From the NCBI RefSeq assembly GCF_000244895.1, contig NZ_CM001441.1:1818226-1882225 (forward strand): a stretch of 64,000 nt of DNA, read 5' to 3'. Below the pieces are notes generated by a model. That model was not told where the DNA came from. It searched no databases and saw only the letters and a program-made list of their open reading frames with translations. The stretch is from Desulfosporosinus youngiae DSM 17734. GTDB lineage: Bacteria; Bacillota; Desulfitobacteriia; Desulfitobacteriales; Desulfitobacteriaceae. A program made the position numbers and the translations under genes. This document shows, in pieces, positions 26,572-43,783 of this stretch (position 1 is its first letter; each line of letters opens with the position of its first letter).

Positions 26572-28584
26572 ATGTCAATCCTTTTTTCGCCCGCTCAAAT
26601 TGGTACACTTCAGCTTCGCAACCACCTGGTTATGACGCCTATGCACTTAGGGTACAGTCCTCAAGGGGAAGTAACTGATCAGCTGATCGAGTTTTATCGA
26701 GCGCGAGCCCGCGGGGGAGTGGGTTTAATCGTGGTTGGCGGGTGCGGAATCGACCGGATCGGCAATGCTTTCGGTATGACTCAGCTTGATGAGGATCGCT
26801 TCATTCCGGGACTTCGCCGTTTAGTTGATGCCGTACACGCTGAAGGTGCTAAAATTGTGCCCCAGCTTTATCAAGCGGGAAGGTATGCTCATTCTGTTTT
26901 AACAGGTCAGCCCGCGGTGGCGCCTTCTCCGATTCCTTCCAAATTGACCAGGGAAACTCCTGTGGAGCTTACCGAAGAAAAAATCAAGGAAGTCATCGCT
27001 TCCTTTGCCGGCGCCGCTAAAAGAGCCCAATCAGCAGGGTTTGACGGGGTTGAGATAATTGCCAGCGCAGGTTATCTGATTTCGCAATTTCTTTCCCCGC
27101 TTACCAATCACCGGACAGACCGCTATGGCGGTGACCTTCAGGAGCGCATGACCTTTGGACTTGAAGTAGTGGGGGCTGTGCGTGAAGCAGTCGGACCGGA
27201 GTTTCCGATCATTGTTCGCGTAGCCGGCAATGACTTTGTTCCGGGCAGCAATACAAACACAGAATCCCGGGCTTTCTGTCAGGCCTTAGAAAAAGCCGGC
27301 GTTAACGCTCTCAATGTAACCGGCGGGTGGCATGAAACCCAGGTTCCTCAGCTTACTATGAATGTACCCCCGGGAGCTTACGCCTACCTGGCTCATGGAA
27401 TCAAAACCGCCGTTTCTATTCCTGTCATAGCCTGTAATCGGATTAACACTCCTGAATTGGCAGAGGGTATCTTAGAAGAGGGATTAGCCGACTTTATCGG
27501 CATGGCCCGCCCTTTGCTGGCGGACCCTGAACTGCCCAATAAAGCCATGAGCGGTCAATCAGGACGGATTCGCCCTTGCATCGGATGTAATCAAGGCTGC
27601 TTAGACTATGTCTTCCGCCTCAAACCAGTCAGCTGTTTGGTCAATGCGGAAGCAGGCCGGGAGGCGGAACTGGGCCCAATCAGGCAAGCTGCGGAAACTC
27701 AACAGATCCTGGTGATTGGGGCCGGTGCCGCGGGGATGGAATTTGCGCGGGTCGCGGCCCTGGGCGGACATGAGGTTACCATTTGGGAAGAGAGCGGACA
27801 GACGGGAGGACAATTAGCCTTGGCGGCAGCCCCTCCGGGACGGCAGGATTTCTTATACTTTGCTGACTACTTAGCCAATGCCTGCCGGGAACTGGGAGTA
27901 AGGATTCAGTATAATACCAAGGCAGCTCCGGACAAGATTCTGGCCGCTGTGCAGAATGGACAGTTTAATAGAGTTGTTCTGGCCACCGGAGCCCAGCCTA
28001 TCACTCCGCCGATCAAAATTGAAGCAGGTGCAGAGGTTCTTCAGGCGTGGGATGTATTATTAGGCCGTAAGAAAACGGGGCGAAACGTGATTATCGTCGG
28101 CGGCGGAGCTGTGGGTGTGGATACTGCTCTGCTCTTGGCGGAAGCAGGTACGATGGACAGTCAAACCCTGCGATTCCTCATGCTGCAGCAAGCGGAAACA
28201 GATCAGGAACTTCATCGCTTGTTGACTCAGGGAACAAAAACGATTACTGTTTTAGAAATGGCTAAAGAAATCGGACGGGATATCGGTCCCAGTACCCGCT
28301 GGTCCATGTTAGCCGATTTGAAGCGCTATAAGGTGAATTGTCTGAGCAAACACACTGTGCTTGAAATCCGCTCGGACGGTGTTCTGGTGGAGAGCGCCAA
28401 TGACGGTGTTCAGAAAGTTATTCCAAGCGATACGGTGGTTTTAGCAGTAGGTTCCTGTTCGCGGAATGAACTCTATCAAGCTTTGCAGGATAAGATAGAG
28501 AATTTAAGTATTATCGGAGATGCGGTTAAACCACGCAAAGTCCTTGATGCAGTGCATGAGGCTTATGCTGAGGGGAGGAAATAA
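26572..28584 (+). CDS. Old-yellow-enzyme-type NADH:flavin oxidoreductase / 2,4-dienoyl-CoA reductase-like
   Basis: The 670-residue protein has an FMN TIM barrel (about 1-340; LFSPAQIGTLQLRNHLVMTPM, then NHRTDRYGGDLQERM), a [4Fe-4S] motif CIGCNQGC...SC (about 337-360), and a C-terminal FAD/NAD(P) Rossmann pair (VIGAGAAGMEFARVAA at about 383; IIVGGGAVGVDTALLL at about 505). This is the domain order of 2,4-dienoyl-CoA reductase, trimethylamine dehydrogenase and several enoate reductases: electrons pass from NAD(P)H via FAD and Fe-S to FMN. It follows the Mo enzyme by 15 bases. Bases 27701-28165 are duplicated at 43319-43783. Confidence 0.92.
   Translation: MSILFSPAQIGTLQLRNHLVMTPMHLGYSPQGEVTDQLIEFYRARARGGVGLIVVGGCGIDRIGNAFGMTQLDEDRFIPGLRRLVDAVHAEGAKIVPQLYQAGRYAHSVLTGQPAVAPSPIPSKLTRETPVELTEEKIKEVIASFAGAAKRAQSAGFDGVEIIASAGYLISQFLSPLTNHRTDRYGGDLQERMTFGLEVVGAVREAVGPEFPIIVRVAGNDFVPGSNTNTESRAFCQALEKAGVNALNVTGGWHETQVPQLTMNVPPGAYAYLAHGIKTAVSIPVIACNRINTPELAEGILEEGLADFIGMARPLLADPELPNKAMSGQSGRIRPCIGCNQGCLDYVFRLKPVSCLVNAEAGREAELGPIRQAAETQQILVIGAGAAGMEFARVAALGGHEVTIWEESGQTGGQLALAAAPPGRQDFLYFADYLANACRELGVRIQYNTKAAPDKILAAVQNGQFNRVVLATGAQPITPPIKIEAGAEVLQAWDVLLGRKKTGRNVIIVGGGAVGVDTALLLAEAGTMDSQTLRFLMLQQAETDQELHRLLTQGTKTITVLEMAKEIGRDIGPSTRWSMLADLKRYKVNCLSKHTVLEIRSDGVLVESANDGVQKVIPSDTVVLAVGSCSRNELYQALQDKIENLSIIGDAVKPRKVLDAVHEAYAEGRK
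27701..28165 (+). repeat. Donor copy of a 465-bp segmental duplication
   Basis: This part of the flavoenzyme gene (the FAD-binding region) recurs at 43319-43783 with a constant offset of 15618 bases, no indels, and scattered substitutions. Confidence 0.92.
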
Positions 28585-30131: not shown

Positions 30132-30194
30132 GAGCAAAATGAGAGGAAAAGATATTAAAGGAAACCTAAAATGGTATTGGTTGGGGGAGAACGT

Positions 30195-31934
30195 GTGAAT
30201 TATCAGTATCATCCTTATATCATGCCGGTCATTGCCTCAGCCTGTGTTTCATTATCCCTGGGGATATTTACCTTGTTAAAGCGCAGGGATGTCAAAGGCG
30301 CTAAAAGTTTTATGATTAGTATGTTTGTAGTAACTATTTGGTCCGGGGGCAATGCCTTGGAAATCGCAGGTTCAGATTTACCAACCAAACTTTTTTGGGC
30401 AAATGTCCAGTATTTTGCCTATTGCTATTCCCCGGTAACCTTACTGGCCTTGTGTATGGAGTTTACAGGCTTTGACCGCTGGGTTGACAATAAAAAAGTG
30501 CTTCGGTTTGCCGTCCTGCCCGCAATTATCCTTCTGCTGGTCTGGACAGATCCCCTGCACAGTTTAATTCGCTATAACCTACACATGGATTATAGCGGCA
30601 CTTTTCCGGTAATTGCCAAAAGATATGGCCCAATGTTTTATATTCATGCCCTGTATTCCCATTTTTTAAATTTTTTTGCCTGGGTATTGTTATTCAGGGA
30701 GGTCTTTTTTAGAAATACCGTCTACCGGAAGCAGGCCGCGGCTCTTCTCTTGGGAATAAGCTTCATTGTTTTGCCGAATATCCTATATATTTCAGGCTAT
30801 AGTCCGGTAAAAAGATTCGACCTGACCCCCGTCTTCTTTGCTCCCGCCGGTTTAATTATTGCCTGGGCTATTTTTCGCTATAAAATGTTTGATGCTGTCC
30901 CGCTGGCCTGGGCCACCGTAATCAGAACCATGGAGGCTGGGGTTATGGTTTTAGATCTGCGCAACAGGGTTCTGGATGTTAACCCTTTCTTTGCCAATAT
31001 GGCCGAAATAAATCCTGCGCTGGTTCTAACCAAACAGGTGGACGAAGTGTGCACAGGAATTCCGGAGCTTATCCAGTTTTGTACAAGTCCAAATATGACT
31101 CCCAGTGAGTTTTCCAGAATTGTTAACGGGCAAACCAAAGTTTATGAGGTCTGGATTTCTCCGCTTATGGACCAGAAAGGAAAACTCATTGGGCGGTTGG
31201 TAGTTATCAATGATATAACCCAAAAGAAACTGGTTCAACAGGAATATCAGAAACAACAGTGGAAGCTTGCTGTTACAGAAGAAAGGGAACGTCTGGCCAG
31301 GGATCTTCATGATAATTTGGCACAAGTGCTCGGCTTTCTTAATTTTCAGACGGAGGGGATCCGGCAGGAACTCCTGAACGCTGGAGTAACCATTGCCAGG
31401 CCTCAGATTGATAAACTGGTGGAAGTTACGCAAGCCGCTCACGCTGATATCCGCGAGTATATCCGCCGGGCCAGAAACTCAGGGTTTATGGATAAAAACT
31501 TTGCGGAGGCTCTTGCCGGAGATATAAGGAGTTTTGAGGAACAGAGCGGTATCAAGGTTCAACTGGATATTCCTCCCGGCTTTACCGGGCGAGAGCTTAA
31601 ACCCCTGGTTCGAATCAATCTGCTGAACATTATCAAAGAAGCCTTGAATAACATCAGGAAACATGCCGGAGCCGGTGTGGTCAGTCTATCCCTGGTCAGA
31701 GCGGAGGGACAGTTATCTGCTGCTATAGAGGATGATGGCAGAGGGTTTGACTCAAAACCGGACGAAGACACCAACCATGGGTTTGGTTTAAATATTATGC
31801 GGGAACGGGCTTGGGAAATAGGTGCTCAAATTGAGATTGTTTCGGCAGAAGGGAAAGGGAGCCGGATTACCTTGCTGGTCCCGTTGGAAGAGGTGAGAAG
31901 GGAAGATGCCGGGGAAAGTGATGCTGGTAGATGA
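30195..31934 (+). CDS. Sensor histidine kinase (7TM sensor, PAS, HisKA_3)
   Basis: GTG 30195, seven bases after GGGGGAGA, gives 579 residues; ATG 30171 is less likely. There are seven predicted membrane helices (about 1-225) of the histidine-kinase 7TM type, a PAS-like domain (about 235-345, ending RLVVINDITQKK), a dimerisation/phosphoacceptor box ERERLARDLHDNLAQ with the phospho-His, and a HATPase domain (NNIRKHAGA, DDGRGF, GFGLNIMRERA). This is the NarX/DesK class. It overlaps the response regulator gene by 29 bases. It stands at the head of the RiPP region and probably controls it. Confidence 0.9.
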   Translation: MNYQYHPYIMPVIASACVSLSLGIFTLLKRRDVKGAKSFMISMFVVTIWSGGNALEIAGSDLPTKLFWANVQYFAYCYSPVTLLALCMEFTGFDRWVDNKKVLRFAVLPAIILLLVWTDPLHSLIRYNLHMDYSGTFPVIAKRYGPMFYIHALYSHFLNFFAWVLLFREVFFRNTVYRKQAAALLLGISFIVLPNILYISGYSPVKRFDLTPVFFAPAGLIIAWAIFRYKMFDAVPLAWATVIRTMEAGVMVLDLRNRVLDVNPFFANMAEINPALVLTKQVDEVCTGIPELIQFCTSPNMTPSEFSRIVNGQTKVYEVWISPLMDQKGKLIGRLVVINDITQKKLVQQEYQKQQWKLAVTEERERLARDLHDNLAQVLGFLNFQTEGIRQELLNAGVTIARPQIDKLVEVTQAAHADIREYIRRARNSGFMDKNFAEALAGDIRSFEEQSGIKVQLDIPPGFTGRELKPLVRINLLNIIKEALNNIRKHAGAGVVSLSLVRAEGQLSAAIEDDGRGFDSKPDEDTNHGFGLNIMRERAWEIGAQIEIVSAEGKGSRITLLVPLEEVRREDAGESDAGR

Positions 31935-32577
31935 TCATGACTTATTCATGGAAGGGCTGAAATACCTGCTCGGAACCTATGGAATTGAGGTTGTCTGCTT
32001 AGTCAAAGACGGCAGTAAGGCCTTGACTCAGGCCAGGCTTCTGAAGCCGGACATTATTTTAATGGATATTAAAATGCCGGATTGCTGCGGGTTGGATGTC
32101 TTAAAACAGATTAAGGCCGATATGCCGGAAATTAAGATCGTCATGCTGACCACTTCCGATGAGGATGATGACCTTTTTGACGCTATTAAATACGGGGCTT
32201 CGGGTTATCTTTTGAAAAATACCAGTGCCAGAGAGCTGGTAGATATGCTGTCCGGTTTGGAAAAGGGAGAGGTTCCTTTGTCTCCGTGCCTTGCTGCCAG
32301 GCTTTTAAAAGAATTCAGACGCAAAGGTGCGCCTGCAGACGTTTTCTCTCAGCAGGCCCGGGAAGAGGTTAGACGAAGGCATCTCACGGAACGGCAGCTG
32401 GAGGTGCTGGAGATGGTTGCCGGGGGCATGACCTATAAGGAAGCGGGAGCGGCTTTAGGACTTTCAGAACGCACTATTAAGTATCATATGGAAAGAATTA
32501 TTGACCAGTTCCATTTGGAAAAACGGGCTCAGGTTATTGCCTATGCAGCCCAGATGGGGCTTATCAAAGGCAAGTAA
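31906..32577 (+). CDS. NarL/LuxR-type response regulator
   Basis: The 223-residue protein has a receiver domain (MLVDDHDLFMEGLKYLL, phospho-acceptor DIILMDIKMPDCCG, switch MLTTSDEDDD, conserved Lys in GYLLKN) and a C-terminal LuxR helix-turn-helix (RHLTERQLEVLEMVAGGMTYKEAGAALGLSERTIKYHMERI). Its gene overlaps the kinase gene, so the two form a two-component pair. A strong terminator follows immediately, so downstream genes have their own promoter, which this regulator may drive. Confidence 0.93.
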   Translation: MPGKVMLVDDHDLFMEGLKYLLGTYGIEVVCLVKDGSKALTQARLLKPDIILMDIKMPDCCGLDVLKQIKADMPEIKIVMLTTSDEDDDLFDAIKYGASGYLLKNTSARELVDMLSGLEKGEVPLSPCLAARLLKEFRRKGAPADVFSQQAREEVRRRHLTERQLEVLEMVAGGMTYKEAGAALGLSERTIKYHMERIIDQFHLEKRAQVIAYAAQMGLIKGK

Positions 32578-32787: not shown

Positions 32788-33354
32788 ATGTTCACGCAGA
32801 CCCAAACCGAGGAAAGGTCATTGGTTTCTCCGGCCGATGATGATCGTGCTTTTATTGAGTTGTATAATGCTTTTTTTTCTCGGGTTTACAATTATGTGCA
32901 TTATCGAGTGAACGATTTCCATGATACTGACGATTTAACCAACCAGATTTTTCTCAAACTCTTTACCAAACGAAAATGTTACCAGCCGGAAAAGGCGCCG
33001 TTTTCAGTATGGATATTCAGAATCGCCCGCAATACCGTAACAGATTATTATCGCCGCCGGGGGCGAAATACTTATGTTTCTTTGGAAGAAACGGAAGAGC
33101 TTGAAGATTCCGGATTTAGCCCTGAAGATGCTGTCGAGTCTAAGGACATGCGGCGGCATTTGCATAGGGCTTTGGCTTCTTTAAGTCAGCGGGAGCGGGA
33201 GATCATCGCCTTGAAATTCTGGAGTGGTTGTACCAACAGGGATATCGCTAAACTAACTGGGATCAGCGAAAGCAATATTGGTGTTATCTTATTTCGGGCC
33301 ATGCGGCGGCTGCGTCAAATCTTGGAAAGCCGGGGGGTTAACATTGATAACTGA
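32788..33354 (+). CDS. RNA polymerase sigma factor, sigma-70/ECF type
   Basis: The 188-residue protein has a sigma region 2 (FIELYNAFFSRVYNYVHYRVNDFHDTDDLTNQIFLKLF...FSVWIFRIARNTVTDYYRRRGR) and a region 4 helix-turn-helix (LSQREREIIALKFWSGCTNRDIAKLTGISESNIGVILFRAMRRLR). AAGGAGG lies 11 bases before ATG. No classical anti-sigma factor follows; the next gene, overlapping by 11 bases, encodes a small zinc-ribbon protein that may fill that role. It probably directs transcription of the RiPP genes just downstream. Confidence 0.92.
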   Translation: MFTQTQTEERSLVSPADDDRAFIELYNAFFSRVYNYVHYRVNDFHDTDDLTNQIFLKLFTKRKCYQPEKAPFSVWIFRIARNTVTDYYRRRGRNTYVSLEETEELEDSGFSPEDAVESKDMRRHLHRALASLSQREREIIALKFWSGCTNRDIAKLTGISESNIGVILFRAMRRLRQILESRGVNIDN

Positions 33355-33727
33355 TCAAACGAAGGCCGAACTGTACCTCGCCTACCTGGACCGGATACTG
33401 ACAGGTGAAAAAGATATTGGACCGGTCGAGGATGCCGAAGTAGCTAAACTCTTGGGGCTGGCCCAAAGCATGATTACTGTTGACTTCAGCACAAACAAGG
33501 AAATCAGGGAGAGACTGCGAAGAAAGCTTCTGGCTCACTTGTCGCCTGAAGATACACCCAACCAGGCAATTGACGTCAAGGTCAACCGGACAGAAGAGGA
33601 CGAGCTTACGGATGAAGATCTGGCATATGCAGCCGCCGGTCTGGAGAGACAAGCCGGAGAGACAATTTGTCCTTATTGCGGGGCAAGGACCATCAGCCTG
33701 GGAAGATGTCCCTTCTGCAGCAGGTAG
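33344..33727 (+). CDS. Small zinc-ribbon protein coupled to the sigma factor
   Basis: TTG 33344 inside the sigma gene, preceded by CGGGGGG, gives 127 residues (start MITDQTKAELYLAYLD). The C terminus is a zinc ribbon, CPYCGARTISLGRCPFC. Just before it lies DELTDEDLAYAAAG, which looks like the leader motif of the RiPP precursors encoded next (ELSDNELDAVAGG). Candidates are an anti-sigma-like partner, or a sensor that competes with leader peptides. There is no membrane helix. Function is inferred only from position and this likeness. Confidence 0.7.
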   Translation: MITDQTKAELYLAYLDRILTGEKDIGPVEDAEVAKLLGLAQSMITVDFSTNKEIRERLRRKLLAHLSPEDTPNQAIDVKVNRTEEDELTDEDLAYAAAGLERQAGETICPYCGARTISLGRCPFCSR

Positions 33728-33838: not shown

Positions 33839-34081
33839 ATGAGTATTGAATCAGCAAAAGCTTTCGTAGCAAAGCTCAAGACGGATGAGGGGTTTGCCAA
33901 TCAGGTTAAGGCCTTCCCGAATGCCGAGGAACGCTTAGCGTTCGTGAAAGAATCAGGTTTCGATTTTACGCCGGAAGAAATTAAACAAGTGGATGAAGAA
34001 CTTAGCGATAATGAGCTGGACGCGGTTGCCGGCGGCGATCATTGGTGTGAAAATGCTTTTTGCTGGACATTTGGTTATTAA
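33839..34081 (+). CDS. RiPP precursor 1, Nif11-type leader
   Basis: ATG 33839, seven bases after GGAGG, gives 80 residues. The leader is a Nif11-like helical domain (SIESAKAFVAKLKTDEGFANQV..., residues 1-66) ending ELSDNELDAVAGG, the double-Gly site cut by C39 peptidases. The core is 14 residues, DHWCENAFCWTFGY: two Cys four residues apart (CENAFC) and five aromatic residues. A SPASM radical SAM maturase and a peptidase-ABC exporter are encoded nearby, so a thioether-bridged secreted peptide is expected (inference). A hairpin follows the stop. Confidence 0.9.
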   Translation: MSIESAKAFVAKLKTDEGFANQVKAFPNAEERLAFVKESGFDFTPEEIKQVDEELSDNELDAVAGGDHWCENAFCWTFGY

Positions 34082-34101
34082 GAACTGTAACCGCACAAAC
34101 A

Positions 34102-34132
34102 AAAGCCGGCTGTTCCTCTAGTAGCCGGCTTT
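34102..34132 (+). terminator. Hairpin between the two precursor genes
   Basis: Perfect 10-bp arms AAAGCCGGCT/AGCCGGCTTT with an 11-base loop, then TTTGCAATT. The T-run is short, so it may attenuate read-through or stabilise the first precursor's mRNA. Confidence 0.65.
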
Positions 34133-34165
34133 GCAATTGAAAATAACCAAAGGGGTGGTTATGAA

Positions 34166-34408
34166 GTGAGTACGGAATCAGCAAGGAAATTTATCGAGAG
34201 GTTAAAAACAGACGAAGGATTCAACAGCAAGATAAGAGAATGCCGCACTGCTGAGGAGCGCATGGTCATAGCGAAGGAAGCCGGGTTTAGCTTTACGCCT
34301 GAAGAGATCAAAGAAATCCGGGAAGAGCAGCTCAGTGACAGTGAACTGGATGCCGTTGCAGGTGCCGGGTGCAGGGAGAATTTATTCTGTGACAGCCTAT
34401 ATTATTAA
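34166..34408 (+). CDS. RiPP precursor 2, Nif11-type leader
   Basis: GTG 34166 after AAGGGGTGG gives 80 residues, collinear with precursor 1 (leader STESARKFIERLKTDEGF..., ending QLSDSELDAVAGAG, with Ala-Gly in place of Gly-Gly). The core CRENLFCDSLYY has 12 residues: Cys-x5-Cys and a Tyr-Tyr end. The shared pattern C-(x)-E-N-x-F-C is conserved while the flanks differ, which suggests the Cys pair and the Phe/Asn between them are the modification sites. Both peptides could form a two-component product. Confidence 0.88.
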   Translation: MSTESARKFIERLKTDEGFNSKIRECRTAEERMVIAKEAGFSFTPEEIKEIREEQLSDSELDAVAGAGCRENLFCDSLYY

Positions 34409-34422
34409 ATCCAGGTGCTGGA

Positions 34423-34462
34423 AGAGGGCGCAGCGAAGGCTTTACTTCGCTGCGCCCTCTGT
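34423..34462. terminator. Long perfect hairpin between precursor 2 and the convergent maturase gene
   Basis: Sixteen-bp perfect arms (AGAGGGCGCAGCGAAG and complement) around a 6-base loop. It separates convergent genes and is probably a bidirectional terminator or mRNA 3' shield; no long T-run is present on the plus side. Confidence 0.8.
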
Positions 34463-34485: not shown

Positions 34486-35877
34486 TCAAAAATCAAGGGG
34501 GCAGGGTTTCGGGGGGAGTATATCCCCTCCCAGCAGGAAAGCCAGATCCTCAGGGTCCAAACAACCAATGATCGCGGCGGCCAGTTCAAGTTCCCGGCGT
34601 CTCAAGCGGCAGATCTCCTCCGATGGTGTGGTCAAGGAGCCGCGGGAGCCCACATTATCGTGTTTGCAGCCGCCGGCACAATAATAGCGGGCCAGGCAGG
34701 CGGTGCAGAGCGGGTTGCTTCTGGCAGGACTTTCCTGATATTGCTCCCTGTTCAGCTTAGACTCAAAAACGGACCCGATTTTATAATCCGCCATACCCAC
34801 AAAACGCTGGCATAAATAGACATCACCTGTAACCGAGACCGCGACCATCCCCAGCCCCGCACTGCAGGCATAATGCAATTTTTTGTTATGGAACAAAGCG
34901 CTTAGACCAAAATATAAGAAACTTTTATTTTTGAGTTCCAGCAAAGCCCCTACATCTCTGCTCCGGGTAAGGCTGATCCAGGTTTCGGCCTCCTGCTCCA
35001 AAAGATCGAGGAGGTTGGAGATGTCACGCTCCGCTTTTTGCTTATCGGCTTCTCCGCAAAAGAGGCTTTGGGAAGACGTGATAACCGATATTTTTTGAAA
35101 ACCGATTTCTTTCATTGCGTCCTTAACCACTTGGGGATCGGTATTGCCGACAATTACGGCATGACCGGGGGTATCGGGCAAGAAGGTCAGCAGGTTCTTT
35201 ATTTTGGGTACGACAACATCATAAGATCCTTGACCGCCCACAAAGGGGCGTTGGAGGTTATGAATCTCCCGGGGACCGTCAATGCTGATCATGACGGAAA
35301 TACTATGGTTGCGGATAAAAGCGATTTGTTCATCATCCAAAAGGGTAGCATTGGTCGTGCAGTGGAATCTCACTTCTTTACCAGTCTCTCGAACGCGTTT
35401 ATTGGTGTACGCTACAATTTCTTTCATCAGCGGAAACTTTAAAAAAGGCTCTCCCCCAAAAAAGCCCAGATGAATCTTTTTCATATCCCTCGATTGTTCA
35501 ATTAACCAGTCCACAGCCTGATAGGCAGTCTTTTCTTCCAGACTGCCGCCTGTTCCGTATCCCCCCCCATTTCCATAACAGTAAACACAGTTTAGGTTAC
35601 AGGACTGGGTCAGAAAAAGGCACATGTTGATAATGGGATAGGGTTCTGTTCTCAGCGGTCGTAGTTTTTTCTCCCAGCCTTCTGAAATGATACCAATTTC
35701 TTGCAGCTTTTTTTCTGCTCCGGCCGATAATAATACTTCAGGCTGAGCGGACAGGCTTTCAAGGATTTTGGCTGTGGGAGCATCAATGGCCTTAGCGCAC
35801 ATCCCTTCAATATTAATGACATAGGGGCTGCCCTGATGATAAAACAGGTGAAAGGGCATTATATCTTTGCTGCTCAA
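34486..35877 (-). CDS. Radical SAM/SPASM peptide maturase
   Basis: The 463-residue protein has an N-terminal leader-recognition-like region (MPFHLFYHQGSPYVINIEGMCAKAIDAPTAKILESL), the radical SAM motif CNLNCVYC (about 103-110), and a SPASM domain with Cys sets CSAGLG...GDVYLCQRF, CTACLARYYCAGGC and EEICRLRR. This layout matches thioether-forming enzymes of the ranthipeptide/SCIFF and quinohemoprotein (QhpD) class. It should install S-C bonds in the precursor cores. It converges on the precursors. Start: TTG 35877 with AGAAGGA upstream, or ATG 35859. Confidence 0.9.
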   Translation of the reverse strand: MSSKDIMPFHLFYHQGSPYVINIEGMCAKAIDAPTAKILESLSAQPEVLLSAGAEKKLQEIGIISEGWEKKLRPLRTEPYPIINMCLFLTQSCNLNCVYCYGNGGGYGTGGSLEEKTAYQAVDWLIEQSRDMKKIHLGFFGGEPFLKFPLMKEIVAYTNKRVRETGKEVRFHCTTNATLLDDEQIAFIRNHSISVMISIDGPREIHNLQRPFVGGQGSYDVVVPKIKNLLTFLPDTPGHAVIVGNTDPQVVKDAMKEIGFQKISVITSSQSLFCGEADKQKAERDISNLLDLLEQEAETWISLTRSRDVGALLELKNKSFLYFGLSALFHNKKLHYACSAGLGMVAVSVTGDVYLCQRFVGMADYKIGSVFESKLNREQYQESPARSNPLCTACLARYYCAGGCKHDNVGSRGSLTTPSEEICRLRRRELELAAAIIGCLDPEDLAFLLGGDILPPKPCPLDF

Positions 35878-35999: not shown

Positions 36000-36090
36000 A
36001 CTTTCTTTGCTCTAACGTACTAACTTAAAGCATAGAGACTTAGAAAATCGTTCTAATCTCAGAATGATCAAGCAAAAGGCAGGAGGGGCT

Positions 36091-37218
36091 ATGTTCGATA
36101 AAATGTGTCGGATTTTTCAAATCCTTTTTCTTTGTCTTGGTTTAATCTTTTTGTCCGCAGGATGCACCCGGCCGGAAGAACCACGGGAAATCGTCATTGG
36201 GGCGGTTTGGCCCTTTGCGGCTAATAATGACCTTTTTAATGAAGGAATCGATCTGGCCGTTAAAGAGATTAACTCTGACGGAGGGGTTAACGGCAAGGAA
36301 TTAAAACTGCTCAAAGAGGACGACAATTCCGAGGTTGTCAAAGGGATCTCCATCGCCGAATCGTTGGCTGGCAATAAGTCCGTCCGGGCAGTCATCGGGC
36401 ACCGCAATTCTTTTGTTTCTCTTCCTGCTTCCGCAGTATACGAACAAGCCGGACTTACCATGCTGTCCCCCACTTCCACGGACCCGGAACTTACCCGTAA
36501 CAATTATCGCTATATTTTCCGCGGCCTTCCCAGTGATGACGAAATCGCGGGGAAACTGGCAGAATTCTTGGGAGGACAGGGCTTAAAACAGATGGTGGTT
36601 TATTATTCCCCGGATGCTTACGGGACCGGCTTAGCCAATTCTTTTGAAGACCAGGCTAAGCGGAAGGGCATCACGATAGTCGATCGTTTTAACGATTACT
36701 CGGGTATAGAAGAACTCAAACGGCTGCGCAGCCGGTGGCAGGCGTTTAGTTACGACGGTGTTTTCATTGCGGCCTCGATGCCTGAAGGAGCCCAATTTAT
36801 TCATGATGCCGGAAAAGCCGGGATCAAGGGGACTTTTGCTGCCGGGGATGCCCTCGACTCTCCTAAACTGGCCGTCATAGGAGGAAAAGCGGCGGATGGG
36901 ACGGTGGTTGGCTCGGTGTTTGATTCAGTTAGTGATCGACAGGAGGTACAACGTTTTGTCGCGGCCTTCCAGAAAACGTACCAGGAAAAACCCACTTCCG
37001 ATGCAGCCTTGGGTTATGATGCCGTAAGGATGCTGGCAGCTGCGATGCAAAAAAGCGGCAAAGAGGATCGGGCTTCGATAGCTGAAGGATTAAGGAATTT
37101 GGGTAAGTGGCCGGGTGTCTGCGGGGTCCATGAATTGAGTGCAGAGGGAGACGACCTGGGCGACTTGGCAGTCCTAAAACAGTTGCAGGATGGGAAATTT
37201 GTTTTCTTAGAAAAGTAA
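36091..37218 (+). CDS. Branched-chain-amino-acid-type ABC substrate-binding lipoprotein in the RiPP cluster
   Basis: ATG 36091 follows AGGAGGGGCT; the frame from 36064 is not needed. The 375-residue product has a lipoprotein signal peptide (lipobox LSAGC) and a type I periplasmic binding fold (VIGAVWPFAANNDLFNEGIDLAVKEINSDGGVNGKEL, VRAVIGHRNSFVSLPASAVYEQAGLTMLSPTSTDPEL), as in LivJ/LivK. No Liv permease or ATPase is nearby; the neighbours are the NHLM exporter genes. It may sense or bind the extracellular peptide or an amino acid signal rather than feed an importer (inference). Confidence 0.88.
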   Translation: MFDKMCRIFQILFLCLGLIFLSAGCTRPEEPREIVIGAVWPFAANNDLFNEGIDLAVKEINSDGGVNGKELKLLKEDDNSEVVKGISIAESLAGNKSVRAVIGHRNSFVSLPASAVYEQAGLTMLSPTSTDPELTRNNYRYIFRGLPSDDEIAGKLAEFLGGQGLKQMVVYYSPDAYGTGLANSFEDQAKRKGITIVDRFNDYSGIEELKRLRSRWQAFSYDGVFIAASMPEGAQFIHDAGKAGIKGTFAAGDALDSPKLAVIGGKAADGTVVGSVFDSVSDRQEVQRFVAAFQKTYQEKPTSDAALGYDAVRMLAAAMQKSGKEDRASIAEGLRNLGKWPGVCGVHELSAEGDDLGDLAVLKQLQDGKFVFLEK

Positions 37219-37231
37219 TGAGGTGCTGGGT

Positions 37232-38203
37232 ATGGAGCAAAAAATATTCCGGGAAGTATCCTTAAAGAGGCTTTCTTCGCCGGAACAACTGGATCAACTG
37301 ATCAAAGTTACTTCACCCAGGGGATGGCTGGCCCTGGTCGCTCTAATCCTTCTTTTGGCTGGGGTGATCGTCTGGAGTTTTGCCGGCAGCATTCCCACGA
37401 AAATAGCAGGACAGGGGATCCTCTTAAATGACGCAGGCGTTTTTTCTTTAACTCATGACACTTCCGGTCTGGTCCTCGACGTGCGTTTCACTGCCGGAGA
37501 TAAAGTGAAAAAAGGAGATATTATCGCTAGAATCGAACAATCGGAATTGGTAAAAGAAATTAATGGTCTGCTTGATACCCTCCAAAGTTTGGAAAAGGAT
37601 GGGGACTCAGCCTCTCTTAAATATCAGAGCTTGAAAAACCAGGTAGAGCAGCTGCGGCAAGAATTGGGCTACCGCTCGCAAATCGTATCACCAATTGAGG
37701 GGCGGGTTTTAGCCATGAATATGCATCCCGGCAGTATCGTTCAGCCGGGGCAGACCCTGGCGACACTGGAGCAGTATGGCGCCTCGGTCCGGCTGCAAGC
37801 CGTGCTCTATGTTGCCGCGGAGCTTGCGGGAAAAATCCGGCCGGGGATGGAAGTACAAATCTCTCCGACAATTGTCAATAAAGAAGAATATGGCTATATG
37901 CCGGGCAGGGTCATTTCCGTTGCAGAATATCCGGCGACTGTCCAAAGCATGATGCAAACTCTGGGCAACGAAAACCTGGTCTCTTTATTGACGGGGCGGG
38001 GTGCCCCCTTAGAGGTCCTAGTCGACCTGGTACCCGACAACAGTACGGTCAGCGGATATAAGTGGTCTTCACCGGCCGGACCGCCCCTCGCCATGGCTGG
38101 CGGAACGCTGGTGCAAGGCGATGTCGTGATTGCCAGAGAAAAACCGGTTGCCAAGGTGATTCCCTTTTTCGGGGCACAGACCGCTGAAAACGGTCAGAAA
38201 TAA
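37232..38203 (+). CDS. NHLM bacteriocin system secretion protein (HlyD family)
   Basis: ATG 37232 is six bases after AGGTG. The 323-residue protein starts EQKIFREVSLKRLSSPEQLDQL, characteristic of the NHLM-type membrane-fusion component. It has one N-terminal membrane helix (about residues 34-55), a biotinyl-lipoyl-like domain with a short coiled-coil hairpin (LLDTLQSLEKDGDSASLKYQSLKNQVEQLRQELG), and a beta-barrel. It links the ABC exporters to the outside. The gene sits between the lipoprotein and peptidase-ABC genes with short gaps. Confidence 0.92.
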   Translation: MEQKIFREVSLKRLSSPEQLDQLIKVTSPRGWLALVALILLLAGVIVWSFAGSIPTKIAGQGILLNDAGVFSLTHDTSGLVLDVRFTAGDKVKKGDIIARIEQSELVKEINGLLDTLQSLEKDGDSASLKYQSLKNQVEQLRQELGYRSQIVSPIEGRVLAMNMHPGSIVQPGQTLATLEQYGASVRLQAVLYVAAELAGKIRPGMEVQISPTIVNKEEYGYMPGRVISVAEYPATVQSMMQTLGNENLVSLLTGRGAPLEVLVDLVPDNSTVSGYKWSSPAGPPLAMAGGTLVQGDVVIAREKPVAKVIPFFGAQTAENGQK

Positions 38204-38220: not shown

Positions 38221-40464
38221 GTGGGCAGAAATAAGGTGCTAAATAACAAAGGAATAACTTCGGCCATAACCAGGGTACCCACCGTCCTCCAGATGGAAGC
38301 AGTGGAATGCGGGGCAGCCTCTCTGTCCATGATTTTAAGATACTATGGGAAATATGTGCCCTTAGAGCAGGTCAGGGCAGCCTGCGGTGTATCCCGGGAC
38401 GGCAGTAAGGCCAGTAATATCCTCAAAGCAGCCAGGCAGTATGGTATGGAGGCCAAAGGGTTTCGCAAGGAACCGGAAAGCCTGAAAAAAATGCCCCTGC
38501 CGGTTATTGTTCACTGGAACTTCAGTCATTTTTTGGTCCTGGAGGGCTTTCGTAAGGGTAACGTTTATTTGAATGATCCCGCTTCCGGCCGGCGGAGTGT
38601 AACGGAAGATGAATTTAACCAGTCCTTTACCGGTATCACCCTTACCTTCACTCCTAGGCCGGATTTTGAAAAAGGCGGCAGAAAGCCCAGCTTGGTCTCC
38701 GGTCTCCTTAAACGACTGCGCGGTTCCCAGGCCGCTTTGCTTTATGTGGTGCTGGCTGGACTGGCACTGGTCATTCCAGGCTTGATTCTTCCTGTTTTTA
38801 CTAGGATTTTTGTTGACGATATTCTATTGGCCGGAAAAGATTCCTGGCTGGTTCCCTTGCTTTGGGGGATGGGATTGACGGCGGTTGTTCGTGGGATTCT
38901 TACCTGGCTCCGACAATATTACCTGTTAAAATTGGAATCTAAAATTGCTCTGGCGTCCTCCAGCCGGTTTTTGTGGCATATTTTAAAGCTGCCGGCGGAG
39001 TTTTTTGCCCAACGCTCCGCCGGGGACATCGCCTCCCGCATGCTGAGCAATGATCGGGTAGCTAAATTGCTCTCGGGTAAACTGGCAGCCTCCGTTTTAA
39101 ATCTGATTATGATTGTTTTCTATTTTATTTTGATGCTTCATTATAATGTCATCTTGGCTTTGGTTGGGCTGGCAATTGCTCTCATCAATATTTTGTATTT
39201 GAAGATGGTTGCGGCTAAACGAAAAGACACGAACAGCAAGCTCTTAAAAGACCGGAGTATGGTTACTGCAACCGGGATGACAGGCTTGCAGATTATTGAA
39301 ACCCTCAAGGCCACCGGTTCGGAATCGGACTTTTTTGCCAAGTGGGCAGGTTATCAGGCTAAAGCTCTGAATTCAGAACAGGAATTAGGGGTTTCTTCCC
39401 AATACCTGGCGGTACTTCCTGCCTTTTTGACGGGAATTAATAACACCCTGATCCTGGCCTTTGGTGCCTTTTTTATTCTGGAGGGACAATTGACCATCGG
39501 CATGCTGGTGGCTTTCCAAAGCCTGATGACCAGCTTTATGACCCCTGTTACAGAAATTGTGGGGCTGGGGGCGGAGCTGCAGGAAGTGGAAGGGGAAATG
39601 AACCGCCTGGACGATGTCTTGCAGTACCCTGCCCGGCCGGAAACAGGGGACGAAGAAAAAGCGGAAGACGCAGAGAAAATGGAAGAGAGGGTTAATGCTG
39701 AGAATAAGGATCAGGGCGGGAGAATTTGCCCGGCTGGGCAAAAGTTAGAGGGCTTTATAGAACTGAAGGGGATCACCTTTGGTTACAGCCTCCTGGAGCC
39801 TTCCCTCATTGAAGATTTCAGTTTAAAGCTCAGGCCCGGATTTCGGGTCGCCTTGGTAGGCGGTTCCGGCAGCGGTAAATCCACCGTAGCGAAAATTCTG
39901 GCTGGAATTTACAAGCCCTGGTCCGGGGAAATCCTCTTGGACGGCCGCCCTAGGTCAGACTGGCTCCCGGATGTGATCACTAATTCCCTGGCCATGGTTG
40001 ACCAGGAAATCTGGATGGTTGAGGGCAGTGTGCGGGACAATATCACCCTGTGGGATGAAACGGTTTCGGAATTCGAACTGATACGGGCGGCTAAGGATGC
40101 CTGTATTCATGAAGACATCACATCCCGGGCAGGCGGTTATGACCAAAGGGTGGAAGAAGGCGGGAAGAATTTCAGCGGCGGGCAAAGGCAGCGTCTGGAG
40201 ATCGCCAGGGCCTTAGTGCAAAATCCCGCAATTATAATCTTGGATGAGGCTACCAGTGCCCTGGACCCCTTAACTGAAAAAATAGTGGATGAAAATATCC
40301 GGCGCCGGGGATGTACCTGTGTGATTGTAGCCCACCGTTTGAGCACCATCCGGGACTGTGATGAGATTATCGTTCTGGAGAAAGGGAAAATCGCCGAGCG
40401 GGGCACTCATGAAGAATTGTATGCGCGAGGCGGCCTTTATGCCGGCCTGATCAAAACCGGCTGA
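38221..40464 (+). CDS. NHLM peptidase-containing ABC exporter (C39 peptidase, membrane domain, ATPase)
   Basis: GTG 38221 opens a 747-residue PCAT. The N-terminal C39 peptidase (about 20-145) has catalytic Cys in MEAVECGAAS, His in HWNFSHFLVLEG and Asp in NDPASG. Six membrane helices follow (about 165-450), then an ATPase with GGSGSGKST, signature FSGGQRQR, and IIILDEATSALD. It should cleave the precursors after Gly-Gly (and Ala-Gly) and export the core. An acidic, Glu/Lys-rich stretch (about 475-505) joins membrane and ATPase domains. Confidence 0.95.
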   Translation: MGRNKVLNNKGITSAITRVPTVLQMEAVECGAASLSMILRYYGKYVPLEQVRAACGVSRDGSKASNILKAARQYGMEAKGFRKEPESLKKMPLPVIVHWNFSHFLVLEGFRKGNVYLNDPASGRRSVTEDEFNQSFTGITLTFTPRPDFEKGGRKPSLVSGLLKRLRGSQAALLYVVLAGLALVIPGLILPVFTRIFVDDILLAGKDSWLVPLLWGMGLTAVVRGILTWLRQYYLLKLESKIALASSSRFLWHILKLPAEFFAQRSAGDIASRMLSNDRVAKLLSGKLAASVLNLIMIVFYFILMLHYNVILALVGLAIALINILYLKMVAAKRKDTNSKLLKDRSMVTATGMTGLQIIETLKATGSESDFFAKWAGYQAKALNSEQELGVSSQYLAVLPAFLTGINNTLILAFGAFFILEGQLTIGMLVAFQSLMTSFMTPVTEIVGLGAELQEVEGEMNRLDDVLQYPARPETGDEEKAEDAEKMEERVNAENKDQGGRICPAGQKLEGFIELKGITFGYSLLEPSLIEDFSLKLRPGFRVALVGGSGSGKSTVAKILAGIYKPWSGEILLDGRPRSDWLPDVITNSLAMVDQEIWMVEGSVRDNITLWDETVSEFELIRAAKDACIHEDITSRAGGYDQRVEEGGKNFSGGQRQRLEIARALVQNPAIIILDEATSALDPLTEKIVDENIRRRGCTCVIVAHRLSTIRDCDEIIVLEKGKIAERGTHEELYARGGLYAGLIKTG

Positions 40465-40548: not shown

Positions 40549-43287
40549 ATGGCTATTGCAGATTTTTTTGAGAGAGAAGGCACTAAGGTCTTATTAGCGG
40601 GCAGCAAACCGCAAATGCTGGACGATCCTGGTTTCGTCTGGTTTGTCGGGCCGGAGAAAGTTACTGTCTTTATAACGGCTTTGTCCATGGATAACCAGCC
40701 GGGAGTTAAGAATTTTCTGTTTGAAGCCGGACCCGGTGAATTGCTCTTTGGCCTGACCCCGGAAGAGCTTCCCCAAAAAACGGCTTTAATGGCATGCGGG
40801 CGGCTAGGCTCCAGCCTGATCCGGCTGGAAGCAAAGCGGCTCGAAGAGTTTCAGTCAGAGGAAATATCCCGGGAAAGAGCCAGGTTGACGGCCTGTTGGC
40901 TGGAAAATCTGAGGAAAGCCGCTGGCGGCGAGATAATTGGGCAAAGCAGGGAACCTAATCTGGCCGATAACGCTTTAAGTGAGGTTGCAGCTTCAGGGGA
41001 CCTTGGTCAGAGCGAGTATGATCACAGTCTGGCTCTGCGCGCGATCACAGAATCTTGGCAGGAAAAAAGGCAGACGGAAGCAAAACGCCTGCAAAAAAGG
41101 AAAGACAATGACCTGTGGCTGATGGACAGTGTACTTTCTCGTCTTGCCTCCCTGAATAGCAAAGAGGAAGAAAGGGGTCTCGACGAGGAAAGCGGCGATC
41201 CGCTGCTGGATGCCTGCCGTCTGGTAGGGCAAAGCATGCAGATCAAAATTGAAACGCCTGATTTAAATAGTCATGATGATGACGGCAGAGAAGGCTATGT
41301 CTCGGAGCTTACCTTAGACGCAATTGCCCGCGCTTCCAGTATCCGGATCAGAGAAGTGGCTTTGAACGAGGAATGGTATAAAGAGGACAGCGGCCCGATC
41401 CTGGGGTTTAGGGAAGAAGACGGCAGACCGGTTGCTCTGATCCCTGTTTCGCCTGGTGCCTATATTCTTCATGACCCAGTCTTACATAGCCAAAAAAAGG
41501 TGGACCGGGAAACGGCTGCTCAAATCAGAGGGTGGGGGTATGTTTTCTACCGTCCCTTCAACCCTAGAGCGATTAAACTGGGTGATCTTCTCTCCTTTGG
41601 TTTGCAAAGCTGCTGGAAAAGGGACTTGCTGGTGATTGTGCTCATGGGTATTCTGGGAGGACTCCTGGGTACTGCCGTTCCCTTGGCAACCGGCATCGTC
41701 TTTGACAGCATTATTCCTGAAGGAGATAAGGGTGCGCTTCTGCAAATTGCTTTGATCCTGGGGTCAGCCGCCCTGGCCTCGATGTTATTTCAATTGACCC
41801 GTTCTTTAGCAACAATGCGCTTGGAAGGAAAAATGGACGGAACACTCCAGGCGGCGGTCTGGAACCGCTTGCTAAGTCTGCCGGTGCCCTTCTTCAAAGA
41901 ATATTCAGCAGGGGAATTGGCCATGCGGGCTATGGGAATCAGCCAGATCAGGGTCATCCTTTCAGGAACAACCCTTAATACAATCCTATCCGGCATTTTT
42001 TCGGTCTTCACTTTTGTTCTGCTATTCTATTACGAAGCCCGGCTGGCCTTGGCAGCTGCAGTACTGGTTGCCCTGGCTGTCCTGATTATGGGGTATCTGG
42101 GTTACCGCAAGGTAAGCTGGGAGCGCCAAGTCTTGGAGGTTTCCAACCATATCTCCGGTTTAATGCTGCAGCTGATTGGCGGAGTGATCAAGTTCCGGGT
42201 GGCAGGTGCGGAAAAGAGAGCCTTCAGCCGCTGGGCCCGGGAATTTAGTTTACAGCGGAAACTGGTTTTCCGGAGGGAAACTGTGGCCAATGTTTTAACC
42301 ACATTTTATTCCATATTTCCGGTTCTCTCCAGCATCATTATTTTCTATGCTCTGACTTCCTTAACTGAGCCGCTGCCGGCCGGTCAGTTCGTCGGCTTTT
42401 ATTCGGCCTTTACGACCTTTATGCTCTCTATGGTTTCATTGTCTGACGCCTTAATCGGCGTTAACCTGGTGATTCCTCTCTACCAAAGGGCCAAACCGAT
42501 CTTGGAAACCCTGCCTGAAGACGATGAAAAGAAGATTAATCCCCGGGTTTTAAACGGTTCAATTGAAGTAAGCCACGTCTCTTTCCGTTACCGGACTGAC
42601 GGCCCCCTGGTCCTGGAGGACGTTTCCTTTGAAATTAAAGAAGGGGACTATGTCGCCCTGGTGGGTACTTCCGGCTGCGGTAAATCCACACTCTTTCGGA
42701 TTCTCTTGGGTTTTGAAAAACCGGAAACGGGAAAGGTTTATTATAATGGACAGGACCTGGCCAAAGCAGATGTCCGGGCTGTGCGCCGGCAGTTGGGTGT
42801 AGTGCTGCAAAACGGGCAGCTGATGACCGGCAGCATCTTAAGCAATATAATCGGCGCCAATCCCCGGCTAACCATCGACGACGCCTGGGAAGCGGCCAAG
42901 ATGGCGGGAATTGAAGAAGACGTCCGGGAAATGCCCATGGGCATGTTTACCATGGTCAGTGAAGGTGCCGGCACCATCTCCGGTGGGCAGAAACAGCGCC
43001 TGATGATTGCCCGGGCTATTGTCAATAAACCGAGGATCATTTTCTTTGACGAAGCTACCAGCGCCCTGGACAACCGGACCCAGGCTATTGTCAGCCAAAG
43101 TTTGGATAAGCTGCAGGCAACCAGGATTGTCATTGCTCACCGCCTGAGCACGATTATGAACTGCCACAAAATCTTGGTGATGGATCAGGGGAAAATTGTG
43201 GAGCGCGGAACCTATCAGGAACTTATGGACAAGGAAGGGGTCTTCGCTGATCTGGCCAGAAGACAGTTGGTGACCTTTTCTCGATAA
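40549..43287 (+). CDS. NHLM second ABC transporter (permease-ATPase with long N-terminal domain)
   Basis: The 912-residue protein has a ~340-residue cytosolic N-terminal domain, starting MAIADFFEREGTKVLLAGSKPQML and typical of the NHLM system's second transporter. A degenerate peptidase-like region follows (EEWYKEDSGPILGFREEDGRPVALIPVSPGAYILHDP), then six membrane helices (about 355-650) and an ATPase (GTSGCGKST, ISGGQKQR, IIFFDEATSALD). It has no catalytic C39 triad. It partners the peptidase-ABC gene 85 bases upstream and is the last gene of the export block. Confidence 0.93.
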   Translation: MAIADFFEREGTKVLLAGSKPQMLDDPGFVWFVGPEKVTVFITALSMDNQPGVKNFLFEAGPGELLFGLTPEELPQKTALMACGRLGSSLIRLEAKRLEEFQSEEISRERARLTACWLENLRKAAGGEIIGQSREPNLADNALSEVAASGDLGQSEYDHSLALRAITESWQEKRQTEAKRLQKRKDNDLWLMDSVLSRLASLNSKEEERGLDEESGDPLLDACRLVGQSMQIKIETPDLNSHDDDGREGYVSELTLDAIARASSIRIREVALNEEWYKEDSGPILGFREEDGRPVALIPVSPGAYILHDPVLHSQKKVDRETAAQIRGWGYVFYRPFNPRAIKLGDLLSFGLQSCWKRDLLVIVLMGILGGLLGTAVPLATGIVFDSIIPEGDKGALLQIALILGSAALASMLFQLTRSLATMRLEGKMDGTLQAAVWNRLLSLPVPFFKEYSAGELAMRAMGISQIRVILSGTTLNTILSGIFSVFTFVLLFYYEARLALAAAVLVALAVLIMGYLGYRKVSWERQVLEVSNHISGLMLQLIGGVIKFRVAGAEKRAFSRWAREFSLQRKLVFRRETVANVLTTFYSIFPVLSSIIIFYALTSLTEPLPAGQFVGFYSAFTTFMLSMVSLSDALIGVNLVIPLYQRAKPILETLPEDDEKKINPRVLNGSIEVSHVSFRYRTDGPLVLEDVSFEIKEGDYVALVGTSGCGKSTLFRILLGFEKPETGKVYYNGQDLAKADVRAVRRQLGVVLQNGQLMTGSILSNIIGANPRLTIDDAWEAAKMAGIEEDVREMPMGMFTMVSEGAGTISGGQKQRLMIARAIVNKPRIIFFDEATSALDNRTQAIVSQSLDKLQATRIVIAHRLSTIMNCHKILVMDQGKIVERGTYQELMDKEGVFADLARRQLVTFSR

Positions 43288-43318: not shown

Positions 43319-43783
43319 AACAGATTCTGGTGATTGGGGCCGGTGCCGCGGGGATGGAATTTGCGCGGGTCGCGGCCCCGGGCGGACATAAGGTTACCAT
43401 TTGGGAAGAGAACGGACAGACGGGGGGACAATTAGCCTTGGCGGCAGCTCCTCCGGGACGGCAGGATTTCTTATACTTTGCTGACTACTTAGCCAATGCC
43501 TGCCGGGAACTGGGGGTAAGGATTCAGTATAATATCAAGGCAACTCCGGACAAGATTCTGGTCGCTGTGCAGAAGGTCGAGTTTAATAGAGTTGTTCTGG
43601 CCACCGGAGCCCAGCCTATCACTCCGCCGATCAAAATTGAAGCAGGTGCAGAGGTTCTTCAGGCGTGGGATGTATTATTAGGCCGTAAAAAAACGGGGCG
43701 AAACGTGATTATCGTCGTCGGCGGAGCTGTGGGTGTGGATACTGCTCTGCTCTTGGCGGAAGCAGGTACGATGGACAGTCAAA
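43319..43783 (+). repeat. 465-bp degenerate copy of the flavoenzyme FAD domain
   Basis: It starts 32 bases after the NHLM ABC stop. Aligned with 27701-28165 at a constant 15618-base offset, it has no indels and a handful of substitutions, many changing conserved residues (GGG to VGG in the second dinucleotide motif). The copied frame stays open but joins foreign sequence at both ends, so it encodes nothing useful. The right edge (...ACAGTCAAA) abuts an IS1634-type transposase tail. Confidence 0.92.

Follow-up and report, generated by a model that had tools for sequence, protein, structure and literature searches.

A pair of Nif11-leader precursors and their NlpM-family radical SAM maturase in Desulfosporosinus youngiae

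Two Nif11-leader precursors with tiny cores lie beside a single radical SAM/SPASM maturase in the anaerobe Desulfosporosinus youngiae DSM 17734, and the question they raise is which bond such an enzyme would put into peptides of so few residues. We analysed a stretch of 64,000 nucleotides (the window; positions 1,818,226 to 1,882,225 of contig NZ_CM001441.1) together with relatives drawn from 23 further genomes or records. The locus probably makes two very small, cross-linked, exported peptides, and with slightly better than even confidence we propose that the maturase, NlpM, links a core cysteine through its sulfur to the β or γ carbon of a nearby residue.

A conserved export locus around two precursors

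Both precursors scored far above the cut-offs of the two leader models (PF07862, 23.8; TIGR03798, 32.3), which bears out their first-pass annotation as Nif11-leader precursors, and PF07862 has no other match in the genome of 5.66 Mb (Table 1). Precursor A starts at the ATG at 33839, with GGAGG upstream; a longer open reading frame from 33824 overlaps this ribosome site and was rejected. Alignment with other precursors places the start of core B at a Gly (VAGA|GCRENLFCDSLYY), the cut site being GA, not GG. The stem-loop between A and B is a possible attenuator or terminator, and the 16-bp stem-loop between B and nlpM is a probable bidirectional terminator, absent from the terminator scan list because it has no T run.

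Table 1. Features of the NlpM locus, in window coordinates.
Feature	Coordinates	Strand	Evidence and remarks
7TM histidine kinase	30171..31934	+	PF16927 207 bits; syntenic in L158, L161, L163
Response regulator	31906..32577	+	Syntenic with kinase in L158, L161, L163
ECF-type sigma factor	32788..33354	+	TIGR02937 121.5 bits
Small zinc-ribbon protein	33347..33727	+	Nif11-leader-like ELTDEDLAYAAAG stretch ahead of ribbon
Nif11-leader precursor A	33839..34081	+	Core DHWCENAFCWTFGY after VAGG; PF07862 62.9 bits, TIGR03798 83.3 bits
Stem-loop between A and B	34102..34132	+	Fold -17.5 kcal/mol, z -3.0
Nif11-leader precursor B	34166..34408	+	Core GCRENLFCDSLYY after VAGA; GTG start; PF07862 55.3 bits, TIGR03798 73 bits
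Stem-loop between B and nlpM	34423..34460	.	Fold -44.7 kcal/mol, z -7.4
NlpM radical SAM/SPASM maturase	34486..35877	-	TIGR04064 591.2 bits, cut-off 518.7
Periplasmic-binding-type lipoprotein (Peripla_BP_6)	36064..37218	+	PF13458 162.7 bits; lipobox LSAGC read in sequence
NHLM HlyD-type adaptor	37223..38203	+	TIGR03794 336 bits
NHLM ABC1: C39 peptidase, permease, ATPase	38221..40464	+	TIGR03796 1130.6 bits; PF03412 C39
NHLM ABC2 permease/ATPase	40549..43287	+	TIGR03797 990.7 bits

On the forward strand the kinase, response regulator, sigma factor and zinc-ribbon genes precede A and B; nlpM, on the minus strand, comes next and converges with them; past it lie the binding-type lipoprotein, HlyD adaptor, ABC1 and ABC2. 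TIGR03794, TIGR03796 and TIGR03797 all scored above cut-off and the C39 domain is present in ABC1, in agreement with the NHLM exporter with C39 peptidase predicted earlier. That transporter had also been called adjacent: it does belong to the same cluster, but it lies about 2.3 kb past nlpM with the lipoprotein and the adaptor between. No second maturase was found in the window cluster, the remaining open reading frames being regulators and transport genes.

The order of sigma factor and zinc-ribbon genes, precursor(s), reversed nlpM, binding protein, HlyD, ABC1 and ABC2 is kept across genera, recurring in Ca. Formimonas (L063) and in L158, L159, L160, L161 and L163 (in L163, ABC2 falls outside the stretch examined). 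Six loci besides that of the window have the sigma factor gene intact, and the zinc-ribbon gene adjoins it in seven loci, the window included. The sister genome G003 retains both precursors, nlpM, the binding-protein gene and the exporter genes (89.6% across 9.6 kb), and the zinc-ribbon gene, the kinase and regulator genes and most of the sigma factor gene, of which only a fragment is left, are missing from this place (L157 10941-11123).

The lipoprotein, of the branched-chain amino-acid-binding type, is encoded in the window and in seven other loci of the same order, and its gene stops 4 bases ahead of the HlyD start. No import permease was found among its cluster genes. Its presence within an export cluster is unexpected, since absence of a binding protein was given as the rule for such clusters (Haft, 2011; PMC3023750), and we regard it as a candidate peptide sensor or immunity protein. 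The zinc-ribbon protein had no match in a Pfam search. Directly before its ribbon it carries an ELxEEDLxYAAAG-like stretch that resembles a Nif11 leader end (ELSDNELDAVAGG); homology to Nif11 leaders, for which there was a local match of 17 columns only (probability 12%), was not accepted and serves as no more than a lead. The protein might act as an anti-sigma factor, or the C39 peptidase might cleave it as another substrate.

The entire locus is flanked by a 465-bp direct repeat, 96.6% identical between its copies (27701-28165 and 43319-43783), of which the downstream one is a fragment of the oxidoreductase-like gene at 26572-28584. The repeat suggests recombination, by which the locus either arrived or was rearranged.

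NlpM and its relatives

After TIGR04064, the next-best families for NlpM by score were PapB (242.5 bits with model NF047865, below the cut-off of 340), QhpD (218 bits) and the SCIFF maturase (213 bits). Its nearest solved structure was CteB both by sequence profile (5wgg, E 7e-67, NlpM residues 9-434) and by fold (from an AlphaFold2 model with pLDDT 87.8; E 1e-29, TM 0.72 relative to the query), and the fold alignment takes in the N-terminal leader-binding domain. SkfB was a weak, more distant match in the same scans. NlpM thus carries an N-terminal RRE-like domain, and a C-terminal PKPCPLDF tail; with a profile alignment to CteB that begins at residue 9 and a full-length fold match, its earlier description as a SPASM maturase with a leader-recognition region stands. 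Kinship to PapB, QhpD and SCIFF maturases, with SPASM and RRE, is the ranthipeptide feature seen in NlpM.

In an alignment of seven NlpM members, the CxxxCxxC cysteines (93, 97 and 100) and seven SPASM cysteines (338, 356, 391, 394, 400, 404 and 423) are invariant, the latter lining up with those of CteB. So is C459 in PKPCPLDF, an eighth cysteine on top of the seven SPASM ligands. The tail, as C-x-L-D-[FL], occurs in 21 of the 27 family members in our tree, divergent Chlorobi and Desulfotomaculia types included, but was absent from every SCIFF and QhpD protein compared. In the predicted model, pLDDT is below 50 for residues 459-463. CteB, of the SCIFF (thermocellin) system, shares with NlpM the RRE, the radical SAM domain and the seven-Cys SPASM layout, but SCIFF precursors are another family and the SCIFF maturases compared have no C-terminal Cys tail.

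Proteins above the TIGR04064 cut-off are rare: we found them in 4 of the 398 phylum genomes sampled, in 5 of 83 from the class, and in 7 of 113 from the class to which a Desulfofundulus genome belongs. In the class that includes a Chlorobiaceae genome, 1 of 98 had such a protein and four more genomes scored below the cut-off. No further members were found in viral contigs. The 27 family sequences form one clade (99/97), within which a canonical group of 14 contains the window and a second group often has two maturases side by side. A search of 299 phylum genomes yielded no PapB members for the tree, nor any control match, so the comparison with PapB is by profile score only.

TIGR04064 (NlpM) was described as the sole maturase of Nif11 precursors, with founding members that include YP_516403.1 (Haft, 2011; PMC3023750). 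The window is an added member of this published family: it too has a sole maturase beside Nif11-leader precursors, scores above the curated cut-off and adds new core sequences only. YP_516403.1 is presumably a D. hafniense Y51 protein. Short-core precursors have also been described, with a leader:core of 66:14 in D. hafniense and 66:17-18 in D. acetoxidans, both from NHLP/Nif11 clusters which, like the window, combine Nif11-type precursors, radical SAM proteins and a peptidase transporter (Letzel, 2014; PMC4289311). Genome G602, with precursors of 66:18 and 66:17, is probably D. acetoxidans, judged by these lengths; unlike the window, it belongs to the sister subgroup, with paired maturases and CCGYTCESE cores. 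In the open-access literature that our search covered, we found no report of an NlpM product or of its bond chemistry.

Short cores with a constant cysteine

The canonical Firmicutes cores number 13: DHWCENAFCWTFGY, GCRENLFCDSLYY, SSWCLWNG, GCLVDSCGLGELF, GCVLDSCGLRELF, MCLTDWCSRGAIL, ICLTDICSKTKFI, ANKPCNTVGGILNPQYQPR, ISACGKICKWGAEINVES, CGHACLEGIGDVQVW, CGHACLAIPGADLKFT, GSSWLGCDSQQEQ and GCLLMFG. All hold at least one Cys, and one Cys shortly after the cut site is their constant feature. A second Cys is present in nine; SSWCLWNG, ANKPCNTVGGILNPQYQPR, GSSWLGCDSQQEQ and GCLLMFG have one only. The first-pass annotation had considered the window cores unusually short for their class, which does not hold given the D. 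hafniense precursor and the shortest core found among relatives, the seven residues of GCLLMFG (G669).

The two window cores had been said to share C-(x)-E-N-x-F-C. Their gap-free match is limited to E-N-x-F-C, at residues 71-75 in both; the first Cys is out of register (residue 70 in A, residue 69 in B). Precursors with CxENxFC beside SPASM enzymes, sought among the relatives, occur only in this genome and its sister, and the motif is no family signature. G003 retains both precursors (A 95% and B 94% identical), and across both cores there are three silent changes and a sole change at the protein level, Tyr80 to Cys, such that the terminal Tyr noted in both cores is found in this genome but in the sister A ends in Cys. 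Aromatic enrichment was likewise rejected as a family trait, since only SSWCLWNG and the two window cores are dense in aromatic residues, although each core has at least one.

Among spacings between Cys and a possible acceptor, C-x-x-[DN] was the most recurrent: it occurs in 6 of the 13 canonical cores, where shuffling predicts 1.6 (P 0.0015, before any correction for the nine offsets), and no other offset stood out in this test. When each clade was represented by a single core it was found in 4 of 10 (P 0.026). As an acceptor pattern the enrichment is suggestive, and weak after this thinning. N-x-x-C was rejected as a family motif, the minus-3 offset being not enriched (3 of 13 against 1.6 expected). 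The second group has CxxxCEx[DE] in 13 of 13 cores (e.g. SCCGYTCETDSRTCSWDRP). In L181, L182, L183, L184 and L185 two NlpM-like maturases adjoin, the C-x-L-D-F tail being in only one of each pair, and the cores are Cys-rich (CCGYTCESD...). Near another NlpM locus, a tiny open reading frame ending ELNEEELEKVAGGNYQAVPTAPC (L162 3821-4000) is a possible minimal-leader precursor.

Two canonical NlpM partners in Chlorobi, one on a conjugative plasmid of Prosthecochloris aestuarii and the other in a second Chlorobi genome, are Nif11 proteins with Cys-less, GG-less cores ending RTRFQESRLGYDGP... (L150 11974-13724 and L164 4417-6191). Both have the same frame and a similar C-terminus, so the lack of Cys is not a frameshift. 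No NHLM exporter was found in the stretches examined around them, and since GG is absent as well they may be a derived side branch. The NlpM beside one of them (G530) scored above the TIGR04064 cut-off. Cores lacking a Cys pair, an observation that had been set against the original reading in advance, thus exist as four single-Cys cores and these two Cys-less partners, while 9 of 13 keep the second Cys: the pair is common but not needed by the NlpM family.

Which bond NlpM may form

PapB links Cys to Asp or Glu, accepts Cys-X0-6-Asp and requires that the acceptor follow the Cys (PMC9413430), QhpD makes S-Cβ and S-Cγ links, and CteB a Cys-Thr link (PMC8326336). As PapB, QhpD and SCIFF/CteB join Cys to a β or γ carbon, the C-x-x-[DN] pattern fits a thioether-forming enzyme, and kinship and pattern together make a thioether from Cys to an Asp or Asn side chain the leading guess. 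A thioether had already been proposed as the simplest product and, by analogy with these relatives, would be the likeliest. The PapB/freyrasin ranthipeptide system is the closest named maturase family to NlpM after TIGR04064 and makes Cys-to-Asp/Glu side-chain thioethers, but its substrate has six CX3D motifs, against one or two Cys in a core of 13 residues.

On this proposal, the precursor leader would bind the RRE-like domain of NlpM, which would act as a CteB/PapB/QhpD-like radical SAM enzyme with two auxiliary clusters. The acceptor for the core Cys would most often be the Asp or Asn three residues on, predicting a Cys69-Asn72 link in B and, in A, a link of Cys70 with the adjacent Glu71-Asn72; with a possible second link at Cys75, each window core may carry two. 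The C39 domain of the NHLM transporter would cut at VAGG/VAGA, and ABC1, ABC2 and HlyD would export a peptide of 13-14 residues. Sensing or control of this peptide is the probable task of the lipoprotein and of the module formed by kinase, regulator, sigma factor and zinc-ribbon protein.

The clearest objections to a side-chain thioether are GCLLMFG and the Cys-less Chlorobi partners. GCLLMFG has a Cys but lacks Asp, Glu and Asn alike, so that not all cores can offer a carboxylate or amide as acceptor; its only possible acceptors are Gly, Leu, Met and Phe, which would suit an NlpM that joins sulfur to the α carbon of hydrophobic or aromatic residues (a sactionine). Met is among the acceptors known from sactionines (SkfA; PMC6231123), and none of the cores surveyed is without an aromatic residue. 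Against this, the families that score closest to NlpM (PapB, QhpD and SCIFF) form non-α thioethers and SkfB is more distant, and we consider sactionines unlikely.

The direction of the link could be either, as D-x-x-C in core A and N-x-x-C in both cores match the geometry of the streptococcal NxxcA, in which Asn20 lies ahead of its partner Cys23 (PMC8326336). Core A contains D-H-W-C and N-A-F-C, core B N-L-F-C and G124 N-K-P-C; from the window motifs, β-thioethers Cys75-Asn72 and Cys70-Asp67 in A and Cys75-Asn72 in B would follow. Against this, N-x-x-C is not conserved among NlpM substrates, with the minus-3 offset at the frequency given above, no NxxcB-type model was among the best matches of NlpM, and PapB refuses the reversed order (PMC9413430); we hold such links to be quite improbable. 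Equally doubtful is an NlpM that makes no use of Cys sulfur, performing a carbon-carbon link, epimerisation or other change, with Cys pairs closing as an ordinary disulfide once exported. In its favour, the Cys-less, GG-less Chlorobi partners keep a conserved C-terminus beside an NlpM, and in these at least the reaction may differ from a Cys thioether. Against it, Cys is present in every canonical Firmicutes core and the Chlorobi pair may be derived.

The C-x-L-D-F tail of NlpM (CPLDF in the window) resembles the C-x-x-D of the cores, and might be a built-in mimic of the C-x-x-[DN] substrate. Its Cys, the only conserved one beyond CxxxCxxC and the seven SPASM ligands, could then cap the iron of the auxiliary cluster, which in CteB has an open site, and give way when a core Cys displaces it. 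Few thioether peptides with side-chain links would be smaller than the products, which would serve as signals that the conserved lipoprotein and sigma module read. We offer this, from sequence resemblance, as a speculation that is unlikely to be right.

The comparison of relatives shows which parts of these tiny peptides are constant, and the cores surveyed form a compact natural substrate series (two-Cys, one-Cys and Cys-less, with one of just seven residues) that allows a direct experimental answer as to which residue NlpM links. The conserved Cys tail of NlpM is specific and easily mutated, and bears on the role of the open auxiliary-cluster site in thioether maturases. If NlpM makes rings in cores of 7-14 residues, it would be a useful small cyclisation tool.
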